Positions 1 through 13,940 of a stretch of DNA of 64,000 nt are shown in pieces. Source of the stretch: Burkholderia cepacia ATCC 25416 (GTDB taxonomy: Bacteria; Pseudomonadota; Gammaproteobacteria; Burkholderiales; Burkholderiaceae); the NCBI RefSeq assembly GCF_001411495.1, contig NZ_CP012981.1, forward strand, positions 868,001 through 932,000, in the 5' to 3' direction. A program made the translations under genes and the position numbers. The notes under the pieces are model-generated. The model saw only the letters and a program-made list of their open reading frames with translations. It searched no databases and had not been told where the DNA came from. Every line of letters starts with the position of its first letter. Positions within the stretch are counted from its first letter, which is position 1.

Positions 1-167
1 CGCTGTGTGCCGACCTCGATATTCCGACGGGCCTGATTCCTCAACTGCTAGCCACTGGTGTGCTGCAGGCAGACCTGGCGCATCACCACATCTGCGCCAC
101 GCTGGAACTGTCGGCCGCATATGGCGACCTGGGCCACCTCTGTTTGATTGAGGAGCTGCGGCCATGA
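1..167 (+). CDS. tnsA: TnsA-like transposase endonuclease subunit, C-terminal end (partial)
   Basis: An open frame enters from the left edge (first full codon at position 3) and stops with TGA at 165-167. The visible 54 residues are an alpha-helical, leucine-rich segment ending in LCLIEELRP, consistent with the C-terminal winged-helix part of TnsA-type endonucleases that nick the 5' ends of a Tn7-like element. The assignment rests mainly on position: it directly precedes tnsB and shares the 4-bp ATGA stop/start overlap used throughout this operon. The catalytic N-terminal part lies outside the window, so nuclease residues cannot be checked. Confidence 0.6.
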   Translation, partial: LCADLDIPTGLIPQLLATGVLQADLAHHHICATLELSAAYGDLGHLCLIEELRP

Positions 168-2197
168 TGTCCGACCTGCGCGCTGGAGACAAGTTGGCGC
201 TGCCCGGGAAAGCGGACAGCTGCTTCGAGGTGATAGACGCTCGCCTGCATGCCGGCTCCATCCAGCTCTTCGATGCCGAGAAATGCGAGGCCCGCTATGT
301 CAAATACGACGACATCCGCGCCCAGATTTCGGAAGGCGGTCTGGTCCTGCATCGAAAGGGAATGCCGCGCGTCAGCATTGCCGCCCAATACGACAATCCG
401 GAATTGCACAGTAAGGTCCGCCTGCTGAACGACACACTGAGGCGTATTGATGCCATCCGGAAGCAGCGAGGTTTGTCGTTTAACGCAGCGATACCTCTGG
501 CCCGTGAAGCCTATCAGATGGAAAACGGGGATAAACCGCTTGTCTGCCCGTTTCCGTCGCGAGCAACCCTGTACCGGGCTCACATGAATCAACTGCTAGG
601 CCTACCAGTTCTCAAGGGTGACAAAAATAAGGGCAATGCGACGGCCAGATATTCAAAAGACCTCGTCGAATTTGTCGAAGAGGTCATCCAGGACCGATTT
701 CTGGTCACGGAATCCGGGTGGACTGTCCTCGACCTGACTAGATACATCAACCGTGAAGCTCGTCGTCGTGGCCTGCATGTTGCCAGGCACGCTATCAGCC
801 GGAAGTTCGTGTGCGCCAGGATTCATGACCTGACCGTCGATGCCGAATACGACCGGATGGACCCGCTAAGCCGGGTCGCCGGCAAGTCGTTCGCGAAGCA
901 ACGTATACGGGCAGCGTTCCCGTTCGCACGGATTGAGCAGGATGCTCTCCACCTGCCATTCGTCGTTCGTACGCCCCATGGCATCGCCCGGACCATCTAT
1001 CTGGTGCTCGCAATTGATGTCTGCACCGGATATCCAGTGGGATGGCACCTCGTCATCGGTTCGCCGCGCGAGATGGATTCGCTGGTGTGCCTTGAGATGT
1101 ATCTGACGCCTGCCAAGGCAGCCCGCTTCAAGGAGCTTGGTATCGCTCATGCGCTGAACATTTATGGCACGCCCGTACTGGTCATTTTTGATAATGGTCC
1201 GGAGACCAAGGGCGGACGAATCGTCCGCCTTGAGCGGCTTGGAATGGATGTCAAGCACTGCAAAGCAAAGGAAGCTCAAGGCAAACCATTCATCGAGCGC
1301 CTGAACAGAGCGCTCAAGGAGGCATTGCAGCTTCTCTCGGGCTGCACGCGCTTTGAAGGAAAGGATGGCGTGCGCGACCCGGAGGCGCTAGGCGACGACT
1401 TGATGACCCTCGACGCGTTCGAGAAATGGATTGTCAGGTGGCTATATGAGGTCTGGGTCAACACCCCGCTCGACCGGCTGCGTTGGGATGAACTGCTGGT
1501 CGATTCGGTCAAGGGAAAGACGCCGCTTGAGCGCCTGACCTACCAGACCGAAGAAATGGGACAACCCATCACCATGCCGCCGGCGCGTCATGAATGGATG
1601 GCTGCACTCTTTGAAAACAAGATGTGCGTGTTGAGCGCCAAGACTGGCATCACGCTTGAGCATGGATTCAGGTACCGCGGCAAAGCCATGTCGTATCTGC
1701 TGGCCAAGTACGGCGACCACTCGCAGCTGCACGTAGTCTACAACCCCGACGACTTCCGCCAGGCATACGTGTACGAGGGAGATGACCTTCCGCTCGTCAC
1801 GCTGACGCACGAACACGTTCGTGAGGACACGCCGGCGTGGACCTTTGCTGAAGCCAAAGCGCGATTCGATTCGGGCATGGCTAACTGGACGGTCCCGGAC
1901 GAAAAGGTCCAATTCGAGCGTGACATGGACGAGGCGGTCACCGGAAACCGGAAAGCCGATAAGCGCAGAACCCGCGGTAAGCGCGAGGAAAACAAGGAAA
2001 CCGTGCGCCGCGCCAAAGACGACTCGGCTGTCCAGAGGGCCATCGACCGGCCGCTTTCAGCGACAGCGCCGTTCGGGCCTGCACCTTCGACCAATCAGTC
2101 GTTGCCGGCGGAAGACCTTCAGCCCGACGCCGTCTCGTACGACAACGCGCCTTTAATGCACATCGTAAACAGAAACACCGGAGAGAAACTGCTGTGA
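164..2197 (+). CDS. tnsB: TnsB-like DDE transposase (rve/Mu-type), Tn7-like element
   Basis: A 677-aa protein, the usual size for TnsB/TniA transposases, which cut and join the 3' transposon ends. The integrase-core acidic triad is visible: D285 (LAIDVCTGYP), D343 (VIFDNGPETKG) and E378 (KPFIERLNRALK), the last two 35 residues apart as in rve-fold enzymes. An N-terminal DNA-binding region (about 1-250) precedes the core, a Mu-type C-terminal beta-barrel region follows (about 480-560), and the last 70 residues are basic and charged, a likely contact for the TnsC-like ATPase. The ATG at 164 overlaps the tnsA stop; the frame ends by overlapping tnsC. The catalytic core looks intact, so the element may be active. 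Confidence 0.9.
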   Translation: MMSDLRAGDKLALPGKADSCFEVIDARLHAGSIQLFDAEKCEARYVKYDDIRAQISEGGLVLHRKGMPRVSIAAQYDNPELHSKVRLLNDTLRRIDAIRKQRGLSFNAAIPLAREAYQMENGDKPLVCPFPSRATLYRAHMNQLLGLPVLKGDKNKGNATARYSKDLVEFVEEVIQDRFLVTESGWTVLDLTRYINREARRRGLHVARHAISRKFVCARIHDLTVDAEYDRMDPLSRVAGKSFAKQRIRAAFPFARIEQDALHLPFVVRTPHGIARTIYLVLAIDVCTGYPVGWHLVIGSPREMDSLVCLEMYLTPAKAARFKELGIAHALNIYGTPVLVIFDNGPETKGGRIVRLERLGMDVKHCKAKEAQGKPFIERLNRALKEALQLLSGCTRFEGKDGVRDPEALGDDLMTLDAFEKWIVRWLYEVWVNTPLDRLRWDELLVDSVKGKTPLERLTYQTEEMGQPITMPPARHEWMAALFENKMCVLSAKTGITLEHGFRYRGKAMSYLLAKYGDHSQLHVVYNPDDFRQAYVYEGDDLPLVTLTHEHVREDTPAWTFAEAKARFDSGMANWTVPDEKVQFERDMDEAVTGNRKADKRRTRGKREENKETVRRAKDDSAVQRAIDRPLSATAPFGPAPSTNQSLPAEDLQPDAVSYDNAPLMHIVNRNTGEKLL

Positions 2198-3180
2198 CGC
2201 CAGCTCAACAACTGCGCAGAGACATTGAGGCCTGCGAACTTCCGCATCCCATGTTTGTGGAGCACCTCACTGCGCTCAAACGGCGCATCGATGACGCCCT
2301 TACTGGCTTTGCGCCCAAAGTCGTTCGGGTTCCTGGTCCGAGCGGTGTGGGCAAATCCTCGCTCATCGCCAACCTGTCTCGCGACTACCCTGAAAACCGC
2401 ATCGATGGACGGCGCCATGTGCCCGTCCTAGTTGTTGAGGTGCCCCAATCCGCAACGGCCAAACTGCTTCCTAAAAGTGTGCTGCGTGCTTTGGGCATCC
2501 AGGTTCCAGGCAGCATGACGGCGGGCGCGATGTTCGACTTGATGGTGACGCAGCTTCGTCTGGCTGGCACACGTGTCGTGATTTTTGACGAGATATCGCA
2601 CCTCGTAGATGAAGGGTCACGGGTGCCTCCGCGCGCAGCCAGCGACTGGCTCAAGACCCTGGCGGACACGCTCGACATGACGCTGATTCTCTTCGGCATT
2701 CCGCGACTCGAACGACTTTTTTCAGCAAATGAACAGCTGCGTCGTCGTGCTTGCCCTGCTCGCAATTTCCTTCCGTACGACGCAAGCATCGCTGACCAGA
2801 TGGCAGCCTACATCTCGTGCGTTGTGAATTATGCGCGCCTGTTCTCGGCGGCGGGCTATCCGATTGACGTGCCCCCACGCGTGCTGACGCAGCAGAGCTA
2901 TCTGCTCACCGGGGGTCTGATTGGGGTACTCGCTGACTTCATGCGCGAGCTGGCCAGTCTGAAGGCGAACGAAGCACCGCGCGCCATTACATACGCAGAC
3001 TGCCAGAGGGCAACTGAATACGTTAGCCACGCTGGGTCACCGCACAGACCGGCTTTCCAGGATTCGGGAATCGATGGCCCGGGCGTGGACCCGGCGGCCC
3101 TGAAACAGGCATACGTTCACGTTCTGATGAGCAACGCGACGTCCGTACCGGTTCGAAAAAAGTCAGGAGATAAGCAATGA
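2194..3180 (+). CDS. tnsC: TnsC/TniB-like AAA+ transposition regulator ATPase
   Basis: A 328-aa AAA+ ATPase starting with GTG, with a 4-bp GTGA overlap with the tnsB stop. Walker A is GPSGVGKSS at residues 48-56 and Walker B is VVIFDE at 128-133; a LRRRACPARNF segment near residue 185 fits the sensor/arginine region. Proteins of this family polymerise on DNA, receive the target signal from a TniQ/TnsD protein and activate the DDE transposase. The next gene starts inside its stop codon (ATGA at 3177), so the four genes are translationally coupled. TnsC and TniB families cannot be separated by eye, but the tnsA remnant upstream favours the Tn7-like assignment. Confidence 0.85.
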   Translation: MTPAQQLRRDIEACELPHPMFVEHLTALKRRIDDALTGFAPKVVRVPGPSGVGKSSLIANLSRDYPENRIDGRRHVPVLVVEVPQSATAKLLPKSVLRALGIQVPGSMTAGAMFDLMVTQLRLAGTRVVIFDEISHLVDEGSRVPPRAASDWLKTLADTLDMTLILFGIPRLERLFSANEQLRRRACPARNFLPYDASIADQMAAYISCVVNYARLFSAAGYPIDVPPRVLTQQSYLLTGGLIGVLADFMRELASLKANEAPRAITYADCQRATEYVSHAGSPHRPAFQDSGIDGPGVDPAALKQAYVHVLMSNATSVPVRKKSGDKQ

Positions 3181-5024
3181 GCCTAGTTCTCACCTATGCC
3201 CCCCGGGACGACGAATCCGGGATGGGGTATTACCGGCGTCTCTCCGCCGACAATGCCCTTTTCAACTGGCGCGACCTGGCAAGTACGGCGGGTATCGAGC
3301 GCAATCGCCGCGCCTTGCTCACTCGCACGGATGACGTAGCGCGTAACCTCGGCCTGGAGCCGGCATGGACCGAATTCACCAAGCAGCAGGAAAACCTCAC
3401 CCGGGATTGGGGACGTCTGCACCGTGCTCAGTCTGACGCCGTGTGTCCGGGGTGTCTGGCTGAATCGCCTTACCTGCGACATCACTGGGAACACGCTTAT
3501 GTCACCGCATGTCCGCACCATAGAATCCTGCTGGTCGACCAGTGCAACGCGTGCGGGAAGCACCTTTCGCCGGAGCGGCTCTACATTGGATTGTGCTCGT
3601 GCGGCCATGACCTGAGCAGCCTGCCGCGTGTGCCGGCGACCCGGGCGCAGCAGTGGCTGTCGACGCTGATTGCGAGCAACGGGCAGCAGGCTGGCAGCGT
3701 GAAGCCGCCCCTGCACGGCGTGGACATCAATGTGTTGGTGAAGGTCATTCGTACTCTCTGCCAATATACGGACCCGACGCGCCCCGGGTTGCCGCGCGGC
3801 GCGGCATTGCCGAAATTCGTCACCGACGCGGTCGAATTCCTCTCGCCGCTCGAACCCTTGTTGACCGACTGGCCAACCGGTTTTCGGAATCACGTCGAGC
3901 AGCGCATTGCCGCCGGTCGCAAGGATGCCCGCACACTGAACACCTTGCTCGGCGACTGGTACATCAGTCTGCGCAAGGTGTGCCAGGGCACGACGCTCGA
4001 GCCCCTGCTGCAAATCATCATCGATGTCGCTGCCCAGAAGTCCGATTGCGTCCTGGGCCTGGATTCGGCCAAAGCAATGGCCGAGGATGCGACTGGATAC
4101 ATGCGCGCACCAGATGCCGCGAAGGCCATTGGCGTCAGCGTTTCACGTTTGCATGAATCCATTCTCGATGGCGAGTGCGAGCACCGTGCACGGCGCACTG
4201 GCACGCGTGGCCAGCTGTTCGAAATTCCATGCGCTGAAGTTGAGCGTATCCAGCGACAACGCGCCGGTTGGATTTCCGATGTCGACGCCTGTGAACTGGC
4301 GGCCGTTCCACCCATCGTCCTCGAACGCATGAAAGCTGCCGGCGTAATCCGTTCGGACGTCCGCTGGCGCGAAGACCTGATGAAGGGCGGTCCGGTCGAG
4401 CGTCAGTCCATCGCGGATTTATATGAGCGTGCGGAGCGGTGGGCTGAACCAGATGCACTGGCTGAAGATTCGACGCTCACATGGGCGGAGCTGACCAGTC
4501 GGCGTATGGGTGACCGACGAGCAATTGAATCGCTGATGCAGGCCATCGCAAACGGCGACGTGAAAGCCGTCGCGCATGGTCGGACACTGGGCGAAATGTC
4601 CTTCCTGAGGGGGGACGTGTCGCAGTATTTCGGCACGCCGCTGCTCGAGGCCGGCATGTCGATTCAGCAGCTCGCGAAAGCGACCGGTTGGAAATGGGAG
4701 TCCATTCAGCACTGGGTAGACGAAGGGTTACTGGCGTCCGTTTCGATTCAACGACGCGGCCAACCTTGCCACGTCGTGCTACCGCACCAGTTGCTGGCGT
4801 TCAGGCAGGCCTATGTCCCGCTGGCAGACCTGGCGCGTGCCATGGGCACGACGTCGTCAGCGTTGTCGCGCCTGCTGCCCCGCGTCGAACTGGTCGGCGC
4901 GAAACGGCTTCCTGATGGCGCAATGCGGGGCGCGCTGATTCGTATCGCCGACCTCGGCCGGTTGGCCGTTATCGGCGCAAGAGCCGGGCACGACCTGTTT
5001 GTTCCTGCATCGTTGGCGCTATGA
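3177..5024 (+). CDS. TniQ/TnsD-family target-selection protein
   Basis: A 615-aa protein with the TniQ N-terminal signature: zinc ligands C90-x2-C93, an HHW segment, C112/H114, C123-x2-C126 and C140-x-C142, matching the paired zinc fingers that open TniQ proteins. The long C-terminal half (about 270-615) contains repeated helix-turn-helix-like segments, expected in full-length TnsD-type proteins that read a fixed attachment sequence rather than in short TniQ proteins coupled to CRISPR effectors. No cas genes or repeats are present nearby, so targeting is inferred to be sequence-specific. The target site itself is not visible here. Confidence 0.82.
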   Translation: MSLVLTYAPRDDESGMGYYRRLSADNALFNWRDLASTAGIERNRRALLTRTDDVARNLGLEPAWTEFTKQQENLTRDWGRLHRAQSDAVCPGCLAESPYLRHHWEHAYVTACPHHRILLVDQCNACGKHLSPERLYIGLCSCGHDLSSLPRVPATRAQQWLSTLIASNGQQAGSVKPPLHGVDINVLVKVIRTLCQYTDPTRPGLPRGAALPKFVTDAVEFLSPLEPLLTDWPTGFRNHVEQRIAAGRKDARTLNTLLGDWYISLRKVCQGTTLEPLLQIIIDVAAQKSDCVLGLDSAKAMAEDATGYMRAPDAAKAIGVSVSRLHESILDGECEHRARRTGTRGQLFEIPCAEVERIQRQRAGWISDVDACELAAVPPIVLERMKAAGVIRSDVRWREDLMKGGPVERQSIADLYERAERWAEPDALAEDSTLTWAELTSRRMGDRRAIESLMQAIANGDVKAVAHGRTLGEMSFLRGDVSQYFGTPLLEAGMSIQQLAKATGWKWESIQHWVDEGLLASVSIQRRGQPCHVVLPHQLLAFRQAYVPLADLARAMGTTSSALSRLLPRVELVGAKRLPDGAMRGALIRIADLGRLAVIGARAGHDLFVPASLAL

Positions 5025-7970: not shown

Positions 7971-8170
7971 GGTGCTTGCTCCCGTAATGAACTGGAATTC
8001 TCGCATGGATTTCCCGTAGATTTTTGATGCATAGGTCTCGATAAAGCGACCGTCTTACCGCGCCTTATTTAGAAATTTATGTGAAAATCAGACAATATTT
8101 CGAGATTCGCCACAACCTCGCTTGCGCCAATTCGATACTTAATGTCGCATATATAAACATATCAAGCCAT

Positions 8171-9328
8171 ATGAAAATCACTTCTGCCTTGCAAACCTCC
8201 GCCGCGACATTTCACTATCTCGTTGGCATCGGATGTGACACACGAGTCGCTGCAAACCTATCTGCTCGCTACTCGGTGGAAGAATTACGTAATCTGGCCC
8301 CACTGAAGCTGAAGCAGTTTGGCATGCCCGAATCGGTAGTCTCGTCATTGAAGAAGCGACGCCTACCTGTACCGGAGAAAACGCTGCGGCAGGTGCTCGC
8401 GAGCAATCTTGAGCTATGCTGCGTTTGCAGAAAACGGGGGCTTGGAGTTGTGGTTCATCATATCGAAAAATATAGCATTTCGAAAAATCACGATGCCTCA
8501 AATCTTGCCGTACTGTGTATAGCACACCACTCAAAAGCTCATGCCAATTTCGAACTTGAGCAAAATTTGACGTCCGAGCGCATAATAAATTACAAAAGGA
8601 AATGGGAGGAGGCTTGTGTATCCATTGAGCGATGGATTCTCGAGTCCGCGGAAAGGCGAATTTACGAGGTCCGCTGGGATTGGGTGAACTTTCGCCGCGT
8701 TCTTCAGAGTACGCTTGAGCTTCCCGATTTTCCAACTAGCTTGGCACGCGAGAAATTGACCGAATTTGGAATTTTGAACGCGCAAGGACATTTCATCGAC
8801 GAGAGCTGGCAAGCACCTCGTCAAAATGGAGGATACTTTGTAAGCGGCAGCAAGCAAATTTATCTCGCCGCCTACATCACTCAGGTAATTGAACTGTTGG
8901 CAAGAAATAGAGCCGTTCTCGACATTACACCTTATCTGGACGAACCGGAGCTTCTGACAGAATTGGTTATGAACGGAGATTTTATATCCGTAAAGGCAGA
9001 CTTCTACTATAGCCCAGTCGACCAGTTCGAGGGAAATGGTGATTCAGCGATGATTGCGAGGGCACTGACGCGAGATGTATTAGTAGAGTTTCCATATGAC
9101 CCATGGTTTTGCCTGAGCAGCACGAGTCGATTTGTCCACTACGAGCGCGGCACATCTACAAGGCAGGTCTTGTTCGGAATGGTCAGGTCAATAACAAGAG
9201 AACCATTCAGAACACGCGTTCTCATCTCCCCGATTGGTACGAGTCCGACATTCGACCCGCGAGACCGGCTGCTGGGAGGATACTTTCCCGTGACTACCAC
9301 CGACCGCAGGTTTCATCTGAAGTCATGA
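8171..9328 (+). CDS. HNH endonuclease with a large unknown C-terminal domain
   Basis: Start is uncertain: ATG 8171 gives 385 aa; an in-frame GTG at 8081 would add 30 residues; neither has a clear ribosome-binding site. A zinc-supported HNH domain is visible: C83-x2-C86, H96-H97 (VVHHIEKYS), N106-H107, N111, then C116-x2-HH and SKAH. Residues 20-75 look like a small helical DNA-binding module. The C-terminal 240 residues do not match a family I know and contain many aromatic and acidic residues. Codon use is AT-rich compared with the core genome, indicating recent transfer. A defence-type nuclease is plausible. Confidence 0.75.
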   Translation: MKITSALQTSAATFHYLVGIGCDTRVAANLSARYSVEELRNLAPLKLKQFGMPESVVSSLKKRRLPVPEKTLRQVLASNLELCCVCRKRGLGVVVHHIEKYSISKNHDASNLAVLCIAHHSKAHANFELEQNLTSERIINYKRKWEEACVSIERWILESAERRIYEVRWDWVNFRRVLQSTLELPDFPTSLAREKLTEFGILNAQGHFIDESWQAPRQNGGYFVSGSKQIYLAAYITQVIELLARNRAVLDITPYLDEPELLTELVMNGDFISVKADFYYSPVDQFEGNGDSAMIARALTRDVLVEFPYDPWFCLSSTSRFVHYERGTSTRQVLFGMVRSITREPFRTRVLISPIGTSPTFDPRDRLLGGYFPVTTTDRRFHLKS

Positions 9329-9425: not shown

Positions 9426-10376
9426 TCACAGTGCTTCGCCCGCGATGTGACTGACACCGATAACAGGGTTGGGCTGGAGGGCTGTGCTGAGTTGCTGCTG
9501 GTCGAGAGAAATGGTTGCAATGATGGACTCGAATTCCACCATCAAGTCCGGATGGTGCCGGGCAACGTATTGCCGGGCAGACTCATTTTCGAGGAGCTTG
9601 GCCAGATATCCCTTTGCGAGCACCAAATTCAACACGTCCTGGCCGTATGTCTGTTCCACGAGCTTGTACTGTGTCTGCAGATTGCTCATCTCCCGCTCCA
9701 TTCTGGCCATCTGCTCCGGGCTAACGCCGTTGAGTTTACGTGGCTTCTTTTCACCCACAAGACGCGCTGCAGGCGTTGCCACCAACAATGCCTCTGCGTA
9801 GGCGACTGACACGTTGTTCGCAGCCACCATCAGTTCAACACATTCGACCTGCCGCGTCGGTTTCATTTTGCGAAGCGCACGGACAAGCTCTGGTGAGAAT
9901 TGCCGGTCTCCCAGGAGCTCAGCCGCTTCCGGACAAATGCCGTCGAGCAATGACATCTTCTTCACTATCTGCGACACATTGACGGAAAGAGCTTTCGCCA
10001 ATCGTTCGGGTGATACGCCTCGGTCAATCACACGCCGAATCATGTGGTGCTCCTGCACGGTGGAGAGGCGATTAACACGATTGTTATAGGTGTAGCTCTC
10101 GTCGTCGGTCGCGACAAGACAAGCAACCTGCTCGTGGCCCAACTCCTGGATAGCAAGCAGACGTAGATGCCCGTCCAGCAGGACGTGCTGCCCGGATGAC
10201 TGGTTCACCGGCGTTACCGAGAGCGGTTCGATAAGACCCACCTCTTCAATGGAGGCCTTTATCTGCTTGAATTTTCGCGATTCAACCACGGGTGTCGGTA
10301 CTCTGCGCGAAGGCAAGATGCCGGTGACCGGCAGCGACAATGGCTCGGGGATGAACCCAAGAATTACGCCTGTCAT
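9426..10376 (-). CDS. ParB-like protein with RepB C-terminal domain (second of pair)
   Basis: A 316-aa protein. Residues about 15-95 form a ParB-type N-terminal domain: IKASIEEVGLIEPLSVTP, then LDGHLRLLAIQELGH in place of the canonical GERRxRA box, and a degenerate third box (YNNRVNRLSTVQEHHMI). A helix-turn-helix follows (SPERLAKALSVNVSQIVKKM). The C-terminal half fits the plasmid-partition RepB C-terminal family. Its ATG overlaps the stop of the preceding parB-like gene by 4 bp. The weakened nucleotide box suggests it may not work as a classical CTP switch. In this chromosomal recombinase cassette, a role in recombination control rather than partition is inferred. Confidence 0.75.
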   Translation of the reverse strand: MTGVILGFIPEPLSLPVTGILPSRRVPTPVVESRKFKQIKASIEEVGLIEPLSVTPVNQSSGQHVLLDGHLRLLAIQELGHEQVACLVATDDESYTYNNRVNRLSTVQEHHMIRRVIDRGVSPERLAKALSVNVSQIVKKMSLLDGICPEAAELLGDRQFSPELVRALRKMKPTRQVECVELMVAANNVSVAYAEALLVATPAARLVGEKKPRKLNGVSPEQMARMEREMSNLQTQYKLVEQTYGQDVLNLVLAKGYLAKLLENESARQYVARHHPDLMVEFESIIATISLDQQQLSTALQPNPVIGVSHIAGEAL

Positions 10377-11275
10377 GTGGCACTCCGGCTTGGCCAGACG
10401 CGTTCGGCAAGATACTTCGGCAGACTTGCCAGTCCCTCCGCGCGCAACAGGTTAACGAAGTTCTCGTCGGCAAACAGTTGCCGCAATGCGCCGACCACAA
10501 ATAGCAACCGCTGCTGCGCGAACTCCGCTTTTCTCACCATCGACTTCTGACGCTCGACCTCGCGTTCATACGTCCGCACGAGGCTCGACGTCGTGACGGC
10601 GGCGGACTTGCTCGACATATTGTGCGCGGTGCTCTTCCCGAGTGCCTTTCTGCGCTCGATGACGCGGCGAGCACTCATCAGTTGCTTGCCCCGCAATTTT
10701 CCCGACTCATAGGCCTCTTGGAGCGCTGCCTGTATTTCAGCGTCATCGTCGCCGGCACCAACAATCATGAGAGCCGCATTGAGGGGAACGAGGCCTTTCT
10801 CCACTGCAACGACAAGTCGCTCTTCTCCTTGGCGCAGTAGCGTGAGAATGCCGTGAACGTAGGTCGATGTAAGACCCGTTTTTTCGGCAATGACTTTCGG
10901 CGCATAACCCTGCTCCTGCAGTAGCCGAATGCCGGCAAGCCGCTCGATGGGCCGACATTGTCTGCGCGCGATGTTTTCCGTCAGACTCATTACGTACGCA
11001 TCCTCATCGCTCACATGCACCACGAGTGCGGGAATAGTCGCTTCCCCAAGCGTGCGAAATGCCTTCAATCGCCCCTCGCCACATACAAGCAGGTATTTTT
11101 CTATACCCGCAGCCGTCACTCGCGGAGTGACCAGGATAGGTTTCTTCAGGCCGATGGTCTTGATATTGTCGACGATTTCGTTGAAGACTCGACCGTTGCG
11201 CTCTCTCGGATTAATGACTTCAATCTGAGAGACCGGAATCATCCGAATTTCTCCAGGCTGCTGTCGCGGGTTCAC
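10373..11275 (-). CDS. ParB-like protein with RepB C-terminal domain (first of pair)
   Basis: A 300-aa protein. ParB boxes are clear: VINPRERNGRVFNEIV (box I region), LVCGEGRLKAFRTLGE (box II), and SLTENIARRQCRPIERL (box III), followed by a helix-turn-helix (APKVIAEKTGLTSTYVHGIL) and a C-terminal RepB-like region. The GTG start at 11275 overlaps the recombinase stop and has an AGGAGA box; an ATG at 11242 with GGAG upstream is an alternative. It lies between the recombinase and a second ParB-like gene, all with 4-bp overlaps, so the three products are made together. No ParA partner is present in the window. Confidence 0.8.
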   Translation of the reverse strand: MNPRQQPGEIRMIPVSQIEVINPRERNGRVFNEIVDNIKTIGLKKPILVTPRVTAAGIEKYLLVCGEGRLKAFRTLGEATIPALVVHVSDEDAYVMSLTENIARRQCRPIERLAGIRLLQEQGYAPKVIAEKTGLTSTYVHGILTLLRQGEERLVVAVEKGLVPLNAALMIVGAGDDDAEIQAALQEAYESGKLRGKQLMSARRVIERRKALGKSTAHNMSSKSAAVTTSSLVRTYEREVERQKSMVRKAEFAQQRLLFVVGALRQLFADENFVNLLRAEGLASLPKYLAERVWPSRSAT

Positions 11276-12837
11276 GCTACTCTCCTGAGACGAGCACGCT
11301 CGGCCATTCCATACAAGTAATCCAGCGTGTCAAAGCGATAGCTCTCGAACTCGATTGAATTTTGGTCGGCGAGATGAATACGCGGTTGCCCAAAATCGAG
11401 ACGCGGCAAAAGGTAGTAGTCGAGCGTCGATGCGTTCGCATGGTCGAGCCGAACCGCAACAGTGATGTCCGGCAGAAGACTCGTATCGAAGCGCACCTTC
11501 CAATGATTTCGGCCATTGCCATGCGCCTGGCACCGTGCGAGCACAATACAGGCCGTGAACTCGTCGTTTACTGTCAGTAGGTCGGTTGCGGCGTCGCGTA
11601 TCATCGTGCCGCCCAAATCGGCTATTTTCTTCTCCGTCTGCGCGACAATTTCTGGATGTAATTGTCGCAAGAAGCGATTGGTCTCAATGTAACGATAGTC
11701 TCGACCAGGAGTGAAGCCGACAGTCTGATAGGCTCGGATTAAACTGCCAAATCGATAAACATAGACGGACGTAGAGGGCATGCCATCTGTTTCGTCAATC
11801 ACCACGCCAGACAGAAATCCGCGAGCGCGGTACAGATTACGCAATCGCTCAATTAACTCTTCGTTCGAGTAGTGCCGCGCTCTCGCTCTCATAATGCCCT
11901 GAGCGGTGTAGAACGTCTCACTCGGGACAATTGCCTGAAATGCTCCCTCTTTTCGAATCCACATATCGGGGGTGTTCATCACCCGCATCTTTTTCAGCTT
12001 GAATGACACCCGATTGTATACGTTATTGCCAATGTATTTTTCGTTGGTCAATACCTCCCGTACCGTCGCCCGCGTCCACTCACGGCCAAGGTCAGTGCGC
12101 ACATTCATGCCGTTAAGGCGAGCTGCAATATCGTATTCGTCGAGCGATTCGTCGATAAACCAGTTATAGATTAAATTGACGATTCGCACCTCGCTTTCCG
12201 GCCCCGGCATCAGGACAACCCTGTCCGTCTGTAGGCTTTTATGTTCGCCTCGATGCAGCTCCGCTTTCATGAGACCGTGCTCATCGACCAATACTCGGCG
12301 CAACCCATAGCCTGCTGGGCCTCCTTGTCGGAAACCCATTTCAATCAAACGACATTGGCCGGCAAACACCTTCGCAGACAGTTCTCGGCTGTACTCGCCG
12401 GCCATTGCGCGCTTCACCCCCTTCACAATGGTCGAGACTGGCGACCCGTCGTTCTCGAACTGCTCGGCGCAGTACGCAACCTGAATTCCTGCACGGCGGC
12501 AAATGTATTCGTAGTACGCGCTCTCGTCGGCATCCTGGAATCTGCCCCAACGACTCACGTCATAGACGAGGATGATGCAGAAATCAGCCTTTCCATTCGT
12601 CACATCGGAAATGAGATTCTGAAGTGCTTGGCGACCGTCGATTCGAAGACCGCTTTTCCCTTCATCGGCATATGTGCGCACGATGTCGAATCCGCGACGG
12701 GTTGCGTAGTCTCGAATCCGGTCGCGCTGATTCTCAGTCGAATACTGCTGGTGTTCCGTGGACATGCGGACGTACTCAGCTGCCCGTCCTGCCAGGGAGC
12801 TGGCTACGCTTGGTGCACCTGCGCTGTTGAATGACAT
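11272..12837 (-). CDS. Large serine recombinase/integrase
   Basis: A 521-aa protein. The resolvase-type catalytic domain is N-terminal: AAEYVRMSTEHQQYSTENQ with nucleophile Ser26, and the conserved arginine motif YDVSRWGR. A recombinase domain follows (MGFRQGGPAGYGLRR, and LTNEKYIGNNVYN around the middle), then a long C-terminal part ending near a DTLDYLYG motif. No zinc-ribbon cysteine cluster is obvious. ATG 12837 is chosen because a GGAGCGGAGA sequence sits immediately upstream; an in-frame GTG lies 12 bases earlier. It overlaps the parB-like gene by 4 bp and is probably the integrase of this cassette. Confidence 0.88.
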   Translation of the reverse strand: MSFNSAGAPSVASSLAGRAAEYVRMSTEHQQYSTENQRDRIRDYATRRGFDIVRTYADEGKSGLRIDGRQALQNLISDVTNGKADFCIILVYDVSRWGRFQDADESAYYEYICRRAGIQVAYCAEQFENDGSPVSTIVKGVKRAMAGEYSRELSAKVFAGQCRLIEMGFRQGGPAGYGLRRVLVDEHGLMKAELHRGEHKSLQTDRVVLMPGPESEVRIVNLIYNWFIDESLDEYDIAARLNGMNVRTDLGREWTRATVREVLTNEKYIGNNVYNRVSFKLKKMRVMNTPDMWIRKEGAFQAIVPSETFYTAQGIMRARARHYSNEELIERLRNLYRARGFLSGVVIDETDGMPSTSVYVYRFGSLIRAYQTVGFTPGRDYRYIETNRFLRQLHPEIVAQTEKKIADLGGTMIRDAATDLLTVNDEFTACIVLARCQAHGNGRNHWKVRFDTSLLPDITVAVRLDHANASTLDYYLLPRLDFGQPRIHLADQNSIEFESYRFDTLDYLYGMAERARLRRVA

Positions 12838-13005
12838 TCTCCGCTCCACAACTCAGACACAGACACGCAGCAGGCACCATGCGCAGGGAGAAGCCCGAAT
12901 GCGAACGCCGCGTCCTGAAATCGGGGCGGGGCGCTCTAAAGCGAACGGTGACAAGGCAAAGGTAGCAGGCCGGACGCCTACGCGTGACACGTCATCTCTT
13001 TGCAA

Positions 13006-13449
13006 TCAGACCGGCGGCGCCGTCGGCGCAGACAGCACGGTTATATGGACGGTCCACGCGTCCATCTTTGCAACGTTGGCGTCATCCGCATGGCACAGGA
13101 CGTAGAAGCCCGAGCCTAGGGACTGCGGACGCCCTGACACGTCCATCTTTGCAATCGCCCTGAAATTCCGCCGTTCGTTGCGCGTCTGCTGCATGCTGCT
13201 ATTACGCTCGCGATACGCCGGATGCGAGGCTCGATATTCGCGCCAGTACCCCGAGTGGCCCGCGAGCCATCTCGCCTGCGCCCGGGCCTGGTTGTCGCGG
13301 TAATCGCTATCGATACAGAGCCGGTGGCTCTGCCAGTCGCGTCGACGAGCTCGCTGGCAAGATTCCGATGAGCAATAGCGCTGACGGGGAACATGCGGCA
13401 GCGGCACGAACGCGTTGCCACAGGCGAGACAGAGGCGGCGGGATTTCAT
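13006..13449 (-). CDS. Cys-rich zinc-finger-like small protein upstream of recombinase
   Basis: A 147-aa protein with GGAGGG five bases before the ATG at 13449. Residues 5-31 hold four cysteines, C7-x2-C10 and C26-x4-C31, in the context CLACGNAFVPLPHVPRQRYC, a zinc-ribbon-like arrangement. A basic helix rich in RRRDWQ, YRDNQARAQARWLA and YWREYRASHPAYRERN follows. The C-terminus carries two copies of an AKMD motif (IAKMD, VAKMD). I associate this type of protein with mobile regions of beta- and gammaproteobacteria but know no function. It is transcribed towards the recombinase 170 bp downstream and may belong to the same element. Confidence 0.65.
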   Translation of the reverse strand: MKSRRLCLACGNAFVPLPHVPRQRYCSSESCQRARRRDWQSHRLCIDSDYRDNQARAQARWLAGHSGYWREYRASHPAYRERNSSMQQTRNERRNFRAIAKMDVSGRPQSLGSGFYVLCHADDANVAKMDAWTVHITVLSAPTAPPV

Positions 13450-13744
13450 GAGTGCCCTCCAGGCGAGGTTGCGACGAGCGGACGCCGGCACCTCGACCAG
13501 CCGCCGACGGCACTGGCGCGGGACGAGATAGAGAGGGGCTTATTCAGTAGCTGCTTCGTTAATCGGCCAGCGCGATTTGCTTGGCGTGTTTGTAGGCCGG
13601 TCTCCGAAACTTGGACATTTCTTGACTGCCGACGTGCAAGGAGAGGCTTCGTCCGCCAGCACAAATCGCTTAAATTGCCTTGCCGGACGCGCAGTTTTTT
13701 GCGGTAGCTTGTACAAAGCCGAGAGAGCGATGCTGGTGCCGTAT

Positions 13745-13940
13745 AAGTAGTCCAGCGTGTCAAAGCGATAGCTCTCGAACTCGATCGGATTCCAGTCCGC
13801 CAGGCTGATACGAGGCTGCCAAAAGTCGATGTGCGGCAGCAGGTAGTAGTCGAGCGCAGTCGCGTTGCTCTGGTCCAGCCTGACTGCCACGGTGATATCC
13901 GGCAGCAGGCTCGTGTCGAACCGTACCTTCCAGCGGTTAG
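13745..13940 (-). pseudogene. Remnant of a second large serine recombinase (C-terminus only)
   Basis: The minus strand encodes about 65 residues closely matching the last 65 of the intact recombinase at 11272-12837: WKVRFDTSLLPDITVAVRLD, then LDYYLLPHIDF, then FESYRFDTLDYLYG. Even the DNA of the final FESYRFDTLDYLYG stretch is nearly identical between copies. After YLYG the sequences diverge, and the frame runs on to 13540 with unrelated residues. There is no catalytic domain. This is the tail of an earlier or tandem element. Confidence 0.75.

Follow-up and report, generated by a model that had tools for sequence, protein, structure and literature searches.

Why should a large serine recombinase be coupled to two ParB-like proteins? 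The question is raised by a four-gene cluster in the window, the whole stretch of 64,000 nucleotides analysed here (C1:868001-932000 of an 8.6-Mb genome). On balance, we favor the answer that the cluster is a site-specific recombination module in which the recombinase (REC) acts at a repeat array under the control of the ParB-like proteins, and which rides on transposons, plasmids and islands.

The four-gene module and its surroundings

The preliminary description had placed a small Cys-rich protein, a serine recombinase and two ParB-like proteins in this cluster, and all four open reading frames (ORFs) were confirmed at those positions on the minus strand. The neighborhood holds the following features.

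9426 to 10376, minus strand: ParB2, RepB family (Pfam), 316 aa, with ENxxR replaced
10373 to 11275, minus strand: ParB1, ParB/RepB family (Pfam), 300 aa, with CGxG and ENxAR present
11272 to 12849, minus strand: REC, serine recombinase, 525 aa, with catalytic and PF07508 domains (Pfam)
13006 to 13449, minus strand: small zinc-ribbon-like ORF, 147 aa from ATG, with repeats 1 and 2 (see below) in its 3′ part
13739 to 13939, minus strand: remnant of the recombinase of a second module, mostly lost, 98.5% identical to module 1 of genome G009
164 to 5024, plus strand: TnsB-like, TniB and TniQ genes of a Tn7-like transposon, convergent with the module

The zinc-ribbon-like ORF would comprise 161 aa if started at an upstream GTG. 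The REC/ParB1 and ParB1/ParB2 pairs each overlap by 4 bp, in agreement with the translational coupling claimed earlier. A family search matched at least 595 genome stretches, at least 590 of which encode a relative of REC, so that the recombinase family is widespread, and the ParB pair is nearly always present in the 80 closest loci. In these 80 loci, the best of the at least 590 and the set analysed here, the order zinc-ribbon/REC/ParB1/ParB2 proposed for a genome search is complete in 75; three of the five incomplete loci are cut by a contig end (L011, L062 and L068) and two are disrupted (L034 and L079). The zinc-ribbon gene adjoins REC in 78 of the 80. Extra recombinases, some on the opposite strand, lie beside the module in L048, L074, L075 and L087, and those of the first three are 37-50% identical. 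A DNA search of E. coli for the module gave no match. No description of the module was found in a search of mostly open-access literature, with bioRxiv outside its scope, including the available parts of PMC9203015, PMC10853773, PMC10250203 and PMC5704250.

Regarding the replicon, the cluster had been called chromosomal, and C1 is indeed a 3.79-Mb contig with an rrn operon; dnaA-dnaN-gyrB was recognized by reading ORFs in L084/L083. Among plasmid records, REC matches occur in 205, of which 60 cover at least 80% of the protein and the remainder include distant ones. As the module is found both in plasmid records and on chromosomes, it is neither exclusively chromosomal nor exclusively plasmid-borne, and the idea that it might occur only on plasmids with parA and rep genes does not hold.

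The module of the window lies directly 3′ of an rrn operon in a 33.6-kb interval, the other side of which was read as gyrB, and it is part of a variable island beside the Tn7-like transposon genes. The TnsB-like ORF (677 aa) has no Pfam match and was named by its position and homologues; a TnsA-like ORF, recognized by ORF reading, precedes the TnsB-like, TniB and TniQ genes, and DUF499, Schlafen-AlbA, DUF1156 and PLD-helicase genes lie beyond them. Genome G087 has the module (96%), the HNH ORF (81%) and the TniQ-TniB stretch (88%) in common with the window. This HNH ORF (window 8081-9328; 415 aa) adjoins the module, has a weak HNH match and shows 81% DNA identity in G087. The recombinase was found in four of the 31 genomes searched; 19 of the 31 belong to the window's genus, and all four carriers are among them. 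In G000, G004 and G008 it occupies the gyrB-rrn interval, and in G009, where the module is present twice in tandem, it neighbors a 5S gene at the end of a contig. The window has one module plus 201 bp of the other. In L058 (11296-12672) and 15 further loci, a family of about 457-aa proteins is encoded 3′ of ParB2; the example scanned had no Pfam match, and DUF3987 matches three of 140 neighbors.

Direct repeats and natural junctions upstream of REC

Direct repeats with the consensus gATTGCAAAGATGGACGYGT stand upstream of REC and constitute a DNA site that is absent from the preliminary description. Three are present in the window, two of them within the zinc-ribbon ORF.

13138 to 13154, minus strand: repeat 1, the probable crossover site TTGCAAAGA[TG]GACGTG, with the TG at 13144-13145
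13057 to 13073, minus strand: repeat 2, a putative accessory site, 81 bp from repeat 1
12988 to 13005, minus strand: repeat 3, a putative accessory site, noncoding, with one extra base, 68 bp beyond repeat 2

Two of the repeats in the window are exact 15-mers, and read by eye the repeats are direct and non-palindromic. In the window alone, the number of matches is not unusual: at up to three mismatches, 3 matches are found where 1.55 are expected, and 20 of 100 shuffles reach 3. Across the 80 loci, a relaxed pattern gives 124 matches in the 36 kb directly upstream of REC and 40 in the remaining 1184 kb, a density about 100-fold higher upstream of REC than elsewhere. At least one match is present in 67 of the 80 loci (three or more in 16, two in 24 and one in 27), and 13 have none. 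Where all the repeats are present, repeats 1 and 2 are spaced by 81 bp, and repeat 3 follows about 68-72 bp on in noncoding DNA. Six alpha modules (L085, L103, L146, L149, L150 and L151) have no match upstream of REC at up to four mismatches, and L144, L145 and L154 carry a version of the beta-type repeat with 3-4 mismatches. The coding repeats are also constrained at the DNA level, as indicated by codon usage: the alanine of the AKMD peptide that they encode is specified by GCA in 58 of 58 occurrences, as against 229 of 1111 Ala codons elsewhere in the zinc-ribbon genes, a bias that is inflated by kinship of the sequences, yet complete.

Natural junctions that break repeat 1 at one and the same TG occur in two genomes of different genera, G008 and L079. 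In G008, the zinc-ribbon gene is split inside repeat 1 (TTGCAAACATG|GACGTG) and its 5′ part is inverted relative to the 3′ part; alignments with the relatives G004, G009, G104 and G331 begin at the core. Its left half runs into a gene identified by ORF reading as hsdR-like, the homologues of which in G343 (90%) and G313 (77%) match up to the break and then continue together, while the right half is fused to CACGGGGCTG, the second partner. In L079, the right half is preceded by part of a gene that is intact in G043; the G043 homologue (74%) agrees as far as CTGGTG and then runs on. A search of the genome of L079 did not find the missing part of the interrupted gene. Two of the three junction partners are thus genes whose intact homologues diverge at the break. 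A simple inversion in G008 was rejected, because the sequence across the break does not match the continuation of the hsdR-like homologues, and its history must be more complex.

Exchange at the TG fits all three junctions, and REC would be their probable maker. Against this reading, the junctions come from two genomes only, their partners share little beyond the TG with repeat 1, the shared TG is a weak microhomology, and direct, non-palindromic repeats are unlike the known dimer sites of recombinases. The loci with few or no repeat matches, the six alpha modules and the unremarkable count in the window weigh against it as well. In a set of 96 modules, in 57 of which repeat 1 was located, alignment starts or ends piled up at repeat 1 in G008 alone, and no mosaicism was seen at this repeat. 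Other interruptions were discarded as junctions: G296 is split in repeat 2 by an insertion of about 1.2 kb that reads as an IS3-type element, which shows that each interruption near the repeats has to be examined individually, and L013, L169 and L170 are partial copies whose break is not at the TG.

The conserved gene order, the repeats upstream of REC and the natural junctions at repeat 1 support the view of a recombination module of its own. In the mechanism that we propose, REC would act on the repeat array upstream of its own gene, with strand exchange at the TG of repeat 1; action at repeat 1, the probable crossover site, is the strongest point of the proposal. Repeats 2 and 3 would serve as accessory sites, in a layout as in resolvase res sites. 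The usual substrate is most likely two copies of the site, and occasional recombination of repeat 1 with unlike sequences would fuse the two halves of the zinc-ribbon gene with host genes. The module would ride on Tn7-like transposons, plasmids and islands with defense genes. A site and its core can now be named, and they offer a possible way in which adjoining islands and transposons rearrange.

REC, the ParB pair and known recombination systems

REC belongs to the serine recombinase superfamily, with a Resolvase domain (Pfam, 6.7e-24) and the catalytic Ser and Arg motifs; Y26, R28, S30, T31, Q34 and S99-R103 are invariant in 28 aligned sequences. It also carries the Recombinase domain of large serine integrases (PF07508, 6.8e-21). 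The catalytic and PF07508 domains align with those of large serine recombinases (SPbeta YokA, TnpX, TP901-1 and Ccr), YokA with residues 210-316, TnpX with 17-95 and TP901-1 with 13-95. In contrast to these enzymes, REC has no recognized zinc ribbon (no family match in Pfam/NCBIfam), it has two ParB-like partners, and its probable site sits within the neighboring gene and is accompanied by further repeats. A structure model of REC (pLDDT 56) is too weak to be used for a C-terminal zinc ribbon or coiled coil. The best NCBIfam match of REC is CcrB, far below the cut-off of that family. In SCC elements, the ccr genes encode large serine recombinases beside variable cargo, an arrangement shared by the module; unlike SCC elements, no fixed integration gene was found for it and its fixed gene set includes no helicase.

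The ParB-like proteins had been described as one with canonical boxes and one with a degenerate nucleotide box, and the alignments bear this out. ParB1 matches RepB (6e-17) and ParB_N (6e-11) in Pfam, and its residues C65, G66, G68, E100, N101, A103 and R104 are invariant in 28 of 28 aligned sequences. ParB2 matches RepB (1e-47), with ParB_N below its own cut-off; it retains LLDGHxR, and ENxxR, which serves CTP/Mg binding, is replaced by DDExYTYNxRxNR...QEH. Ten residues of this signature (D91, D92, T96, Y97, N98, R100, R103, Q108, E109 and H110) are invariant in 26 of 26 sequences, and ParB2 is therefore conserved for something other than the canonical box. The relatives of solved structure found for ParB2 are Noc and Spo0J. 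The pair has the ParB_N and RepB domains in common with the CTPase clamps ParB, RepB and Noc, and differs from them in that no ParA was found, ParB2 lacks ENxxR and the genes form an operon with a recombinase gene. The zinc-ribbon-like protein has four invariant Cys (25 aligned sequences) and no Pfam or NCBIfam match at an E value of 0.1; a structure model search returned YacG alone (E 1.3).

In the proposed mechanism, ParB1, with motifs intact, and ParB2, with its motif replaced, would bind DNA at or near the array and govern synapsis or direction; like the function of repeats 2 and 3, every role of the pair in recombination is here presumed. A more specific version, which we put forward tentatively and with considerable doubt, is that ParB1 is an active CTP switch and ParB2 its inactive partner, and that the two, loaded at the coding array, gate synapsis of repeat 1. 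Gating of recombination by the ParB proteins, if real, would connect CTP switches with serine recombinases, and we know of no earlier CTP-controlled system of site-specific recombination.

The ParB pair could instead take no part in recombination and serve partition or maintenance of an excised or plasmid element, its genes being kept beside REC for stability. The membership of both proteins in a RepB-type family is in keeping with this, and so is PMC5704250, which lists an element of Streptococcus that combines a serine recombinase with RepA and ParB and suggests that the excised form is maintained. However, the two paralogues stand in fixed order and the modules occur on chromosomes, and a ParA gene adjacent to the pair, as in ParABS systems, was not found. 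The earlier statement that the cluster lacks ParA and replication genes stands, with none among the 9 + 8 window proteins scanned by family; in the other loci, no ParA- or Rep-type family matches two or more of 140 neighboring ORFs (25 of 89 families listed). We consider a pure maintenance role improbable.

Neighboring genes bear on another reading, in which the ParB-like proteins are defense effectors and the recombinase only moves the defense system. Among the 140 immediate neighbors, raw counts in the 25 families listed include AbiEii (7), Fic (3) and RloB (2), PADLOC recognizes AbiEi in four, and single Wadjet- and DISARM-type proteins are present; BREX- and Hma-type proteins are also seen. 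Nevertheless, the neighbors vary while the four genes stay, and raw counts do not amount to enrichment. This reading is very unlikely in our estimation.

The weightiest alternative, quite possible although we rate it below the proposed mechanism, is a system for the resolution of dimers or cointegrates, in which recombination by REC between two arrays in direct repeat removes the intervening DNA. Such a system would act on plasmids, tandem modules or replicative TniABQ transposons, and the two ParB-like proteins would have an architectural part. A res site is an array of three sites followed by the recombinase gene, and the window shows the like order repeat 1-2-3-recombinase, with three or more matches in 16 of the 80 loci. 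As in Tn3/gamma-delta res and Tn5053 tniR, the repeat array ends at the recombinase gene, the probable crossover lies in the distal repeat, and some loci have TniQ neighbors. Elements of the Tn5053 type carry a resolvase, and convergent TniQ genes lie downstream of the module in eight of the 80 loci (flanks up to 8 kb) and in the Agrobacterium records L144, L145 and L154. The intact zinc-ribbon gene beside REC in nearly all loci and the tandem modules in G009 and G376 also fit resolution. On the other hand, the TnsA-like ORF implies that the transposon of the window should move by cut and paste, REC is of the large type, and the observed junctions join unlike sequences. The module further differs from the Tn3/gamma-delta and Tn5053 systems in its large enzyme, its ParB-like partners and its repeats: the sites bound by the recombinase in res are inverted repeats, and because the direct, non-palindromic repeats of the module fail this defining feature, the module was not filed as a resolvase module. 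It may nonetheless function like one.

Mobility and the ends of the module

The preliminary description had suggested a self-contained mobile element, and this part is supported for an Agrobacterium relative only, with other boundaries. The REC of this relative is 54-56% identical, and the unit of 3904 bp comprises REC, ParB1, ParB2 and a small gene on the opposite strand. Two plasmids carry it at 96.9% identity, with flanks that are unrelated to each other, and in both it lies between two copies of a CTTGAnnGGAATCGAACC-like motif; in other plasmids, the left flank is common up to the CTTGAnnGGAATCGAACC-like motif and the unit is then absent. The CTTGAnnGGAATCGAACC motif has 43 matches (at most one mismatch) in eight Rhizobiales plasmids, as against none for the reversed control, and three of the 43 flank the two Agrobacterium modules. 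Since the motif is common in these plasmids, it may be a target rather than a part of the unit, and we retain it solely as the apparent boundary of the Agrobacterium unit.

For the clade of the window, the suggestion was not supported: neither flanking direct repeats nor an empty site was found. Repeats were sought in 73 of the 80 loci, over positions -1300 to -560 relative to REC and as far as 500 bp beyond ParB2, and were not beyond chance, with two of the 73 reaching the 95% point of the null. An empty site was not found among the eight relatives of the window's genus with both ends of the interval on one contig (G001, G004, G008, G011, G012, G013, G016 and G017); their gyrB-rrn interval ranges from 5.6 to about 40 kb, and hence offers no clean empty site.

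These data bear on the reading that the module is a small autonomous mobile element, a unit of about 4 kb that excises and inserts by means of REC. The Agrobacterium unit, with its motif at both ends and two unrelated contexts, speaks for it, as does a 4.0-kb unit common to G004 and G009 at 94% with different flanks. The small share of motif matches that flank modules and the result of the repeat search in the 73 loci speak against it. Integration through repeat 1 should moreover split the zinc-ribbon gene, and its regular place next to REC means that such integration is not the usual state. An autonomous element is therefore unlikely in our view, and we prefer a module that is carried by other elements. 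An integron-like cassette array run by REC was rejected on the same motif counts, on the lack of direct repeats beyond chance around the module in those loci, and because about 420 bp beyond the right end of the neighboring Fic unit showed no CTTGAnnGGAATCGAACC copy.

Several minor observations were made in the same records. The Fic gene of about 1.33 kb (L085 18348-19682 and H158-H177) is 88-96% identical in many plasmid contexts. A motif of about 28 bp, [CG]G[CT]CTTGAnnGGAATCGAACCgnCgnCC, resembles a tRNA T-arm (e.g., L085 14454 and 18336; L105 17474 and 18363); its 43 sites in eight Rhizobiales plasmids are dispersed, several of these plasmids having it on a single strand, and at three places copies bracket a VapBC-type unit of about 889 bp. 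In G294 (L174 and L175), matches to the N-terminal part of the zinc-ribbon protein lie at six dispersed places, of which five are alike; they are possibly another mobile element. CATAAnnnGAGA-like repeats with TGTAG ends were found upstream of the module in L003, L006, L007, L009 and L180; as candidates for parS the CATAAnnnGAGA repeats were rejected, because they adjoin the TGTAG ends and look like transposon ends. In L003, L006, L007 and L009, an AraC/GyrI-like regulator gene lies near the TGTAG ends, which suggests a fixed transposon target.
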